Origin: Stenomitos frigidus ULC18
Lineage (GTDB): Bacteria; Cyanobacteriota; Cyanobacteriia; Leptolyngbyales; Leptolyngbyaceae
Direction: 5' to 3'
Assembly: GCF_003003795.1 (NCBI RefSeq)
Contig: NZ_PVWK01000119.1
Coordinates: 1-32,251, forward strand
DNA length: 32,251 bases
A model generated the notes under the pieces. The model made no database searches. It saw only the letters and a list, made by a program, of their open reading frames with translations, and had not been told where the DNA came from. Both the position numbers and the translations under genes were made by a program. Positions 29,011-32,165 of the stretch are shown piece by piece (position 1 is the first letter of the stretch; each line of letters opens with the position of its first letter).

Positions 29011-29853
29011 TTAGTTGGTAGGCGGCATCACAATTCTCTTCGCTAAGCCCAGACTTCTAAGGACGCTAATAGACCACCAGGTCATATCAATTTCCCACCA
29101 TTTCAACCCTGCCTTTGCCACATTGGGATACGCGTGGTGGTTGTTGTGCCAGCCTTCGCCGTAGGTCAAAACCGCTGCCCACCAAAGGTTACGCGAATTA
29201 TCATCAGGCTCAAACGTGCGATAGCCGCTCATGTGGCTTGCCGAGTTGATCAACCAGGTGCTGTGCCAGAGCAAGACCGCTCTGAGAAACACACCATAGA
29301 TAACGAATGACCAACCGCCTAGCAGGTAAAGCACCACGCCGACGGGAATCTGGAGCATTAAGAAGTAGCGATCTAAGAAGCGGTAGAACGGATCTTTATC
29401 AATATCAGGCGCAAACTGACGATACGATTCGCGATCGAAAAAGCGGTCTTGTGGGTAGAACAACCACATCATGTGGCTCCACCAAAACCCCTTTTGCGCC
29501 GAGTAGGGATCTTTTTCGTTATCTTCGGTGTAGAGATGATGCATGCGGTGTCCAGCGACCCAGAAGGTCGGCCCACCCTGTAGCGCTAAGGCACCGATGA
29601 GCGTGATCGTCCGTTCCAGCCATTTGGGTACATGGAAACTACGATGCGTCAGCATGCGATGATAGCCCAAACAAATGCCGATGCTGCCAAAGAGCCAGTG
29701 CAAGACCAGCGTGACGCCGAGCGCTGACCAGGAGAAAAACCAGGGCGCTAGTAACGCCAGTGCATGAAACGCTCCAAAAAACACCACATTAGTCCAACTC
29801 AGCGCGAGCGGCTTCCTGCCCTCGGAGGCAGTTTGAAGAGAATTAGAAGTCAT
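29011..29853 (-). CDS. desC: delta-9 acyl-lipid desaturase (stearoyl type)
   Basis: 280 residues, integral membrane di-iron desaturase that introduces the first double bond into C18/C16 acyl chains; key for membrane fluidity in cold. All three histidine boxes are present: HRMLTH (65-70), HRMHH (102-106) and HNNHH (236-240). Membrane helices are predicted at about 22-57, 85-99 and 170-195. The absence of a carrier-specific extension fits the cyanobacterial DesC type. It is divergent from the TetR/recombinase fusion 287 bp away. Start ATG 29853. Cold regulation is likely by analogy only. Confidence 0.95.
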   Translation of the reverse strand: MTSNSLQTASEGRKPLALSWTNVVFFGAFHALALLAPWFFSWSALGVTLVLHWLFGSIGICLGYHRMLTHRSFHVPKWLERTITLIGALALQGGPTFWVAGHRMHHLYTEDNEKDPYSAQKGFWWSHMMWLFYPQDRFFDRESYRQFAPDIDKDPFYRFLDRYFLMLQIPVGVVLYLLGGWSFVIYGVFLRAVLLWHSTWLINSASHMSGYRTFEPDDNSRNLWWAAVLTYGEGWHNNHHAYPNVAKAGLKWWEIDMTWWSISVLRSLGLAKRIVMPPTN

Positions 29854-30027: not shown

Positions 30028-30068
30028 GGCGGCTCGTCTGCCCAAGAACCCGTTACAGTAGGAGAGAA

Positions 30069-30131
30069 TGCAAGTGTTACTTACACCTGTAGCCTAACAG
30101 CGAATTTCAGATTCTGCAAGTGTTACTTGCA
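30069..30131 (+). promoter_or_regulatory. pair of palindromic operators before the TetR-fusion start
   Basis: TGCAAGTGTTACTTGCA (30115-30131) is a perfect dyad with 7-bp arms and a GTT spacer. TGCAAGTGTTACTTACA (30069-30085) differs at one base. The copies are direct repeats with centres 46 bp apart. The second ends 8 bp before ATG 30140. TetR-type regulators typically bind such dyads next to their own gene, so these are probably the autoregulatory and possibly desC-regulating sites. Confidence 0.8.
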
Positions 30132-30139
30132 TTTTGCCT

Positions 30140-31378
30140 ATGGTTACCCAACGAAACCCAACTCGACAGCGTTTAATTCATGCAGCGTTGGAGTTGTTTG
30201 CCGTTCAGGGTGTCACCGATACAACGACGCGGCAAATTGCAGAACTGGCGGAGGTGAATGAGGTCACGCTCTTTCGTCATTTTGGTAATAAACATGGGCT
30301 GTTGCTGGCAGTGATCGAAGATGCTGGTGCTTTTGCTCATCTAGGGCAAACGCTGATCCGACAGGCAAACCAGACCAGTAGCATTTACCAGGCGTTGAAA
30401 GAATATGCCACTGCCTGTTTAGCCGCTATGGATCAAGTGCCTGCAGTGGTGCGATCGGTCGTTGGTGAAGCAGGGCAGTATCCGGCGAAAAACCGAGAAG
30501 CGATCGGTCGAGGCTTTACGCAAGCCAATCGCTACGTTGCCAAATATTTTGAGACGGTGATCAAGCGAGGACAACTCAATACTCACCTCCCTGCCGAGAA
30601 ACTAGCGAGTTTACTCAACGGCATGCTGTTGGGGTATGCCGTCATTGAATTTACCAGCGAGTTCCATCAACTTTGGCAAGACCGGGATGATTTTCTGGAG
30701 AATCTCGTGACCTTGTTTTTGCAGGGTGCAGTGTCACCCTCGTCAGACGTCAGCCCAGAATTTTCGGGTTTAGTGCCCTTTGAGCTTGCTACGATCGCCG
30801 AAAAAGTGGCTGATTTGCCATCACCATTAGTCCATGCCCTCCTGCAACACGCCAAGAAACTGGGACTGCAAGAGTATGCGATCGCCTATGTTCTCTTTGG
30901 TGCAGGCTTAAGTGCGGTAGAGCTTTGTCGGTTGGAACGATCGCACCACATCAACGATCCTCACCAGCAGCTTCTGCAAATTACGCAAGGAACCGTGCGT
31001 CAGGTGCCAGTGAATCAATGGATCATGGGCAAACGCTATGGCTCCTACACACGCAACCCCCTCACTCAGTGGCTCCGCAGTCGCAAAGACAATCAACTAG
31101 CCATGTTTCTAAACCAGTCTGGACAGCCCTTGTCGGCGGCTGAACTGCAGCAGCAATGGCAGGTGATCAGTGATGGTATTTTGACCCTTAGCGGACAACC
31201 ACCCGCGATCGAGCAAACCCAACAAACCTGGTGTGTGGAAATGCTGATGCGAGGCATGACCCTGGCCGATCTGCGCCTTCTCATTGGCTGGGATGCGGCC
31301 AGACTGCAACCCTATGCCGATCGAGCCAGAGAAAAAGCCGCGTTGGAACAGGCCATTCGGTTGGATCAAAAAGCCTAG
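30140..31378 (+). CDS. TetR-type regulator fused to an inactive tyrosine-recombinase-like domain
   Basis: 412 residues. The N-terminal TetR helix-turn-helix is clear at 8-55 (RQRLIHAALELFAVQGVTDT, RQIAELAEVNEVTLFRHFGN), followed by the helical ligand-binding part (about 60-197) and a linker. Residues about 228-395 resemble a phage-integrase core: GAGLSAVELCRL (255-265) aligns with the Arg-I motif GLRISEL, EQTQQTW (358-364) with HxxRHT, and LLIGW (380-384) with LLGH. The catalytic Arg, His and second Arg are all replaced; only Y392 could match the nucleophile. It therefore probably binds DNA or oligomerises without recombining. ATG 30140 is preferred over a TTG at 30134. Divergent from desC. 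Confidence 0.82.
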   Translation: MVTQRNPTRQRLIHAALELFAVQGVTDTTTRQIAELAEVNEVTLFRHFGNKHGLLLAVIEDAGAFAHLGQTLIRQANQTSSIYQALKEYATACLAAMDQVPAVVRSVVGEAGQYPAKNREAIGRGFTQANRYVAKYFETVIKRGQLNTHLPAEKLASLLNGMLLGYAVIEFTSEFHQLWQDRDDFLENLVTLFLQGAVSPSSDVSPEFSGLVPFELATIAEKVADLPSPLVHALLQHAKKLGLQEYAIAYVLFGAGLSAVELCRLERSHHINDPHQQLLQITQGTVRQVPVNQWIMGKRYGSYTRNPLTQWLRSRKDNQLAMFLNQSGQPLSAAELQQQWQVISDGILTLSGQPPAIEQTQQTWCVEMLMRGMTLADLRLLIGWDAARLQPYADRAREKAALEQAIRLDQKA

Positions 31379-31415: not shown

Positions 31416-32165
31416 TTAAATGAGTGGCAGTGCATTGAGCATGCCAAGTTTTTCCAATGCATGGGCGATCGCCTCTGTGCGGCTTTGTACGCCCAATTTG
31501 TGAAAGATGCTTTCCATGTGCTTGCGGACTGTGCTTTTGCCAACACTCAGTTGAGCTGCGATCGCTTTGTTATCGTTGCCTTGCATCACCCGCACTAAAA
31601 CCTCAGCTTCTCGCTGGCTCAATCCCAATAGTTCTAGCGACTCCAATAACGATAGCGTCTGTTCTTCCAACAGCAGCAGATAGCGCTCTGCCATCTGCTC
31701 AACGACCAAACGAATCGTCAACTGCTTACCATCCTGTTCGATTCGGAGCGGCAACCAGGCTTTTGGCAGGTCTGTTTTTTGAGTGAAACAATTGATTTGA
31801 TGCTTGACCCATGCCCATAAATGATCTGGAAGTTGAAGAGAGCCAGTGGGTTTGGGGAAATAGGCTTCCAGCCACGCTGTGGCTTGGGGCGTGATCCACT
31901 GCACCTGCCCTTCAGTGTTCAAAATCACTAAACCAAGAGGGTTGAGGGACTGCTGAAATTGGTTCAAATCTTGTTGCAGTTGTTGATAGTGTTGAGCATT
32001 GCCATATGCCTGGGATAAGTGAGGGCGCAGGAGGTTAAGGATGAGGCGATCGCGCTCTGTAAAGCTGCGTTGAGGGCGATGCAGCGCAAACCCTACCAGA
32101 GTTACATCTGTTTGCGAAAATTCGCTCCAACTGCCCGAGTTAGCATTCGGCAAGAAAAAAACCAT
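31416..32165 (-). CDS. LuxR-type transcriptional regulator, probably 5'-truncated
   Basis: 249 residues from ATG 32165. The C-terminal LuxR helix-turn-helix is complete (about 180-240): LGLSQREAEVLVRVMQGNDN, then KAIAAQLSVGKSTVRKHMESIF. Before it lie FTERDRLILNLLRPHLSQAY and a PAS-like middle part (NPLGLVILNTEGQVQWITPQA), an architecture seen in ~350-residue cyanobacterial LuxR regulators that carry about 100 more N-terminal residues. The codons just upstream of the ATG read QGIEDQ, which fits that family, but a TGA closes the frame at 32184-32186. The intact start is therefore lost or frameshifted, or the truncated product begins at ATG 32165. It converges with the TetR-fusion gene. Confidence 0.8.
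   Translation of the reverse strand: MVFFLPNANSGSWSEFSQTDVTLVGFALHRPQRSFTERDRLILNLLRPHLSQAYGNAQHYQQLQQDLNQFQQSLNPLGLVILNTEGQVQWITPQATAWLEAYFPKPTGSLQLPDHLWAWVKHQINCFTQKTDLPKAWLPLRIEQDGKQLTIRLVVEQMAERYLLLLEEQTLSLLESLELLGLSQREAEVLVRVMQGNDNKAIAAQLSVGKSTVRKHMESIFHKLGVQSRTEAIAHALEKLGMLNALPLI

Follow-up and report, generated by a model that had tools for sequence, protein, structure and literature searches.

Why should a transcription factor encoded next to a lipid gene end in what looks like the catalytic domain of a tyrosine recombinase? The gene that raises this question lies in a stretch of 32,251 nucleotides from the cyanobacterium Stenomitos frigidus ULC18 (the window), where an open frame at 30140..31378 on the plus strand runs from ATG to TAG and encodes 412 amino acids. 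A first-pass annotation had read the product as a TetR regulator fused to a degenerate recombinase-like domain, beside desC; profiles, a structure model and homologues bear out the fusion. That annotation gave the TetR part the N-terminal third of the protein, which was right as to family and too short as to extent, the TetR matches (TetR_N at residues 12-58, TetR_C_7 at 85-194) taking up about half.

The protein falls into four parts. The TetR_N helix-turn-helix (30173..30313, plus strand) matches Pfam PF00440 at E 1.4e-13, and in the ligand-binding and dimer region that follows (residues ~61-200; 30320..30739, plus strand) the TetR_C_7 match has an E of 7.7e-6 and a score of 26.3 bits against a cutoff of 22; by profile the TetR half is an ordinary TetR family member. 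Next come a variable linker (residues 202-219; 30743..30796, plus strand) with pLDDT below 50 and the recombinase-like domain (residues 223-412; 30806..31375, plus strand), identified by profile, AlphaFold model and fold matches as a catalytically dead version of the tyrosine recombinase catalytic domain. Directly N-terminal of that domain stand only the TetR part and the linker of ~20 amino acids, and a core-binding domain is absent. In the full-length model the recombinase-like domain is confident and the TetR part modest (pLDDT block means 53-84) and, given the low values in the linker, the model does not fix the relative placement of the two halves.

The annotation had proposed comparing the domain with integrases by profile and by structure, and both comparisons give strong matches. 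Against residues 222-412 alone, PF00589 (Phage_integrase) reaches E 5.7e-6 and 26.6 bits, where the curated Pfam cutoff is 27.1; it is not reported in a Pfam scan of the whole fusion protein, and from the NCBIfam XerC model the full-length sequence gets a weak match (E 4.4e-4, 19.7 bits). Scores below the PF00589 cutoff may be why a relative on a Gloeothece plasmid is named only TetR/AcrR. For structure alignments we used 61 proteins, the window protein and those of 60 of 80 retained loci at pairwise identity below 93%, with locus L043 left out; 59 of the 61 match PF00589 at E<=1 (best 7.9e-12), and other Pfam families match fewer of them and more weakly (CPSase_L_D3 in 23 members, best 0.0018; Sigma70_r4_2 in one, 1.9e-4). 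The domain profile matches the recombinase XerA (PDB 4a8e) at 7.5e-6. An AlphaFold model of the domain has a mean pLDDT of 93.6 and, as a predicted model rather than a solved structure, finds tyrosine recombinases with Foldseek at E 2.4e-8 and TMq 0.74; every one of the 50 PDB chains reaching E<=0.001 is a tyrosine recombinase or an integrase, and VIA-align superposes the model on XerA with Z 20.6 and rmsd 3.3 over 176 aligned residues. As modelled, then, the domain has the tyrosine recombinase catalytic-domain fold. That the integrase motifs had been read into the translation by chance is ruled out by the PF00589 match, the profile alignment to XerA, the fold matches and the 59 matching family members.

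Its active site has gone. In the XerA profile alignment S258, E358, Q361 and Y392 of the window protein lie under the catalytic Arg, His, Arg and Tyr, the same assignment for the first three as in the first-pass annotation; the catalytic Lys is not recognisable in this alignment. The loss of Arg, His and Arg proves to run through the whole family, save for some members at one or both Arg positions: among 115 distinct full-length proteins, position 258 is Ser in 99 and Arg in two, position 361 is Gln in 97 and Arg in 12, and position 392 is Tyr in 110 and Phe in five, while none of 120 full-length members has His at position 358. Two members (L034 and L099) carry both Arg along with Trp384 and Tyr392, and are without the His. 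Judged by its sequence, with the active site lost and the core-binding domain missing, the domain is not a tyrosine recombinase in the working sense.

Other residues are kept instead. R287, N292, G301, N306, P307, R315, W340, Q359, T363, W364 and D409 are invariant in all 115 distinct proteins; residues 292-317 form a conserved stretch, part of which stands opposite a gap in XerA in the profile alignment; and the C-terminal helix at 386-410 is strongly conserved (e.g. E398, K399, A401, L402, E403, A405, L408 and D409). The net charge of the domain is +3 in the window protein and +2.5 on average in the family, compared with +6, +7 and +6 in three recombinase-like comparators.

A search of genome contigs returned 182 stretches encoding relatives, of which the 80 mentioned above were retained. 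The collected set holds 124 loci encoding 119 distinct proteins; 120 are full-length and 115 of these are distinct, which rules out a frame error or a peculiarity of one genome, the outcome that the annotation had named as counting against it. Matches at E<=1e-20 occur in 50 of 386 genomes of the phylum: 41 read as full fusions, spread over 11 family codes, three (G011, G177 and G332) have TetR-only orthologues, and six (G116, G255, G262, G306, G328 and G336) match the TetR part alone at the level of paralogues. For fusions outside cyanobacteria, genome contigs, phage records, plasmids and viral contigs were searched. Phage records gave three matches with a best E of 0.8, PHROGs a best E of 0.14, and viral contigs 54 matching stretches of which none was confirmed; the plasmid search gave one record, carrying the Gloeothece member. 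A profile search for the domain standing alone, in 146 genomes of the phylum, recovered 14 members of the family plus three weaker recombinase-like frames, 311-314 amino acids long, in which the motif HxLRH can be read.

The domain is kept by selection. Mean pairwise identity over 1500 random pairs is 0.76 in the helix-turn-helix, 0.66 in the ligand region, 0.15 in the linker (taken over 201-221) and 0.64 in the recombinase-like domain. In 12 of 13 pairs chosen by hand the domain's dN falls well short of its dS, the thirteenth pair being identical, and in all 12 informative pairs it exceeds dN of the ligand-binding region. From these sequence comparisons the domain is under purifying selection and therefore kept, though less tightly than the TetR part.

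The constant partner of the fusion is a fatty acid desaturase gene, its presumed target, which in the window lies divergently at 29011..29853 on the minus strand. Its product matches FA_desaturase (PF00487) at E 3.3e-23, and its best solved relatives are acyl-CoA desaturases (E 1.3e-29). The name desC given to it beforehand fits and the desaturase assignment stands; the more specific part of the name finds no backing in the models, since no DesC-specific model is met and a DesA-family match is below cutoff. A divergent desaturase homologue lies upstream in 123 of the 124 loci and in 115 of the 115 distinct full-length ones, so the pairing that the annotation had suggested looking for elsewhere is common to many cyanobacteria; the one exception, L043, is without its start and upstream DNA (just 127 bp lie upstream) and was excluded from site counts. 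The home genome encodes a second DesC-like protein of 272 amino acids, 50% identical to that of the window (L159, on contig C70), and two more distant ones. For PCC 7120, two genes, all1599 and all4991, are given as d9 (Table 1, PMC2593844).

Between the two divergent genes lie two palindromes, TGCAAGTnnnACTTGCA, bracketing a predicted desC promoter. Predicted operator 1, TGCAAGTGTTACTTACA, is at 30069..30085, on the predicted desC start site; predicted operator 2, the perfect palindrome TGCAAGTGTTACTTGCA, is at 30115..30131 and overlaps the predicted -35. Allowing at most two mismatches, 117 of 123 loci have two sites and six have one (two sites in 111 of the 115 distinct full-length loci); among the 117, spacing is 46 bp in 35 and 47 bp in 67. 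Sites number 9.2 per kb in the intergenic DNA, as against 0.021 per kb in the remainder of the same loci. Genome-wide in the home genome, operator 2 is the sole perfect match to the site pattern, and five places match with one mismatch, among them operator 1 and three that form a short array on contig C30. The three matches on C30 (G000:C30:3225-3267) come from overlapping TGCAAGTTGAAG-like units, which probably form a small tandem array. Allowing up to two mismatches, that genome has 30 matches to the site pattern and 37 to its reversed control, and we therefore make no claim of a wider regulon.

The predicted desC promoter, on the minus strand, consists of a -35 element TTGCAG at 30114..30119, overlapping operator 2, and an extended -10, TGTTAGGCT, at 30091..30099 with its hexamer at 30096-30091, 17 bp from the -35. 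The case for it is the conserved geometry: on the desC strand the TTGCAN of operator 2 is followed 15-19 bp on by TGnTAnnnT in 111 of the 117 two-site loci, at exactly 17 bp in 104, against a mean of 0.93 (maximum 5) for shuffled spacers and one on the other strand; 103 of the spacers are distinct. A consensus promoter scan reported no promoter, and the predicted hexamers match the consensus poorly. For the regulator gene a weaker candidate -10, TACAGT at 30054..30059 on the plus strand, was read by eye and is moderately conserved. By the window coordinates of the -35 and -10, operator 2 would lie over the -35 and operator 1 over the probable start site, an arrangement of sites and promoter that a desC repressor would use; we infer that the palindromes are its operators. 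The same promoter geometry can account for the fixed site spacing with no contribution from the fused domain; the promoter by itself may dictate that spacing.

How much the domain contributes can be approached through relatives without it. TetR-only relatives divergent from a desaturase gene are found in two genomes of one genus (G011 and G422) and in the family coded f25. In L127 and L178 both sites are kept, 47 bp apart; in f25, L168 (genus g145) and L180 (g144) have two sites 49 bp apart and L162-L167 (g56) have a single site at up to two mismatches. The regulator frame of L180, which is the same place as L169, is split. A remnant of the domain was sought in ten TetR-only loci and none was found (best E 0.032). 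A tree of 61 proteins, with fusions thinned to below 82% identity (a few kept regardless) and three paralogues as outgroup, nests L127 and L178, of the genus of G011 and G422, among the fusions at nodes of 96/91, 97/92 and 100/100, although its bootstrap had not converged and long branches in other parts of it drew a warning from the program; L166, L169/L180 and L179, being broken, split or truncated by the end of a contig, were left out, and L170-L177 were not used. By this nesting, absence of the domain in L127 and L178 is a loss, and going by these sequences the domain is dispensable in their genus. Family f25 is a long branch of unsettled position, in which the missing domain may be ancestral or a loss; the idea that the domain was gained after f25 branched off finds no support in the tree, where that branch is long and poorly placed. 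Nor do paired sites go with the domain, an idea suggested by the first two f25 TetR-only loci, each with one site, and overturned by L168, L180 and L178 with two. Since TetR-only loci can have paired sites, the sites and their two-site layout can both persist without the domain. With domain lost and both sites intact, L127 and L178 offer a natural comparison for what the domain contributes.

The reading we prefer, to which as a whole we give an even chance, is a self-regulating repressor of desC. By analogy with known regulators, the protein most likely represses the desaturase gene and its own gene. TetR dimers would bind the two palindromes around the desC promoter, at its -35 and at its start site, and silence the two divergent genes. 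They would come off the DNA once a lipid-derived ligand, probably an acyl thioester, occupies the TetR pocket. Fold matches of the full-length model include FadR proteins, among them the acyl-CoA-bound FadR of T. thermophilus; with a TetR-half pLDDT of 53-84 they are suggestive only, as a hint of an acyl-CoA-type ligand. The dead recombinase domain would be an accessory module that contacts DNA and bridges dimer to dimer, strengthening binding at the paired sites. We hold this role for the domain to be the most likely one because its fold matches act on DNA and because MrpR, described below, uses a dead recombinase fold as a repressor.

The domain might instead bind a small molecule, a protein or the membrane, off the DNA, leaving the operators to the TetR part alone. 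Such a sensor or partner-binding role is possible, if unlikely: TetR-only relatives retain similar sites, and the domain's own invariant set, with the stretch at 292-317 partly opposite the XerA gap, is what a new binding site would be expected to show, but the fold matches listed are all DNA-acting proteins (recombinases, topoisomerases IB and phage repressors) with no sensor among them. The low net charge of the domain is weak for a clamp on DNA and, with the TetR-only loci, speaks for a sensor or scaffold role over bridging. As a scaffold the domain would merely stabilise or dimerise the TetR part, for instance through its long C-terminal helix; that helix is strongly conserved and in active recombinases the C-terminal end packs on a neighbouring protomer, but TetR proteins dimerise unaided and relatives with TetR alone survive next to the desaturase gene, and we find this role doubtful. 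About as improbable, and a shade less so, is a synapse-like assembly in which TetR dimers sit on the two operators and their dead domains swap C-terminal helices between dimers, gripping the promoter in between; if true, a recombination scaffold would have been turned into a cooperative, lipid-controlled switch.

Two further readings are very hard to credit. Some members could still cut or recombine DNA, as Tyr392 in 110 of 115 distinct proteins and the two Arg pairs of L034 and L099 might suggest; yet His is missing from all 120 full-length members, the window protein is also without both Arg, five members have Phe for Tyr, and there is neither a recognisable catalytic Lys (XerA alignment) nor a core-binding domain. 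MrpR likewise retains its Tyr, and no recombination by it was seen (PMC10516654). Equally remote is the domain as decaying, functionless baggage from an accidental fusion. In favour are its rate of change, higher than that of the TetR part in the 12 informative pairs, and its loss from one genus. But the domain persists in 115 distinct full-length proteins of many families, with at least 11 positions invariant in every one, and its dN lies far under dS, which already makes this reading difficult to maintain.

Parts of the preferred reading have precedents. DesT of Pseudomonas aeruginosa and MadR of mycobacteria are TetR family members, and neither is known to have an extra C-terminal domain. 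Both regulate desaturase genes and respond to acyl-CoA (PMC8872791). Like them, the fusion regulator is genetically tied to a desaturase gene, here in 123 of 124 loci; DesT is not named among the 28 profile matches or 50 fold matches listed, which excludes no relation. Cyanobacterial desaturases act on lipid-bound acyl chains, and the ligand of the fusion regulator may differ from the acyl-CoA of DesT and MadR.

For the domain the nearest precedents are phage repressors. MrpR (YopR) of the Bacillus prophage SPbeta (PDB 8A0A, 8BPZ and 8BJ6) is a repressor of recombinase fold in which the first Arg and the His are replaced, V257/R258 stand at the second Arg position, and Lys and Tyr are kept (PMC10516654). 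SroF of phi3T (PDB 9RD5 and 9RGL), judged by its PDB entry titles, is another recombinase-fold repressor; no paper on it was found in the open-access literature. The domain of the fusion resembles MrpR in fold and in lost residues, and would resemble it as a repressor part. However, MrpR and SroF are phage proteins without TetR, whereas here the domain is joined to TetR and encoded in host DNA next to a lipid gene; MrpR also retains a core-binding domain, which the fusion lacks. The domain model aligns with MrpR and SroF structures at VIA Z 11.8-13.1 and is nearer to XerA and XerH than to MrpR. With XerA, XerH and the Tn1549 integrase it shares the catalytic-domain fold over ~176 residues and differs in the replaced Arg, His and Arg, the missing core-binding domain and the joined TetR. 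By analogy, the fusion protein would work most like a DesT-type regulator with an MrpR-like part.

No description of the combination of TetR and dead recombinase was found in the open-access literature, which mostly does not cover subscription papers and preprints. Also new here are the paired palindromes bracketing the predicted desaturase promoter, and with them is proposed a dedicated regulator with predicted operator sites for a cyanobacterial membrane desaturase gene. The family suggests the takeover of an enzyme fold for a regulatory task; if so, a dead recombinase fold has entered a transcription factor outside phages and has been maintained across many cyanobacterial families.

Just downstream of the fusion gene in the window, and convergent with it, lies a gene for a LuxR-type regulator (31416-32165, minus strand; GerE E 2.1e-17); no match to it at E<=1e-8 was found in the other 123 loci, some of which have little downstream DNA. 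The plasmid-borne member (L181, on pP742403 of Gloeothece citriformis PCC 7424, NC_011730.1) has a desaturase gene upstream and both sites. This pair adjoins a gene for an orange-carotenoid-protein N-terminal domain and an ssl1498-family light-harvesting-like gene, a neighbourhood hinting at a mobile cassette for light or cold stress.
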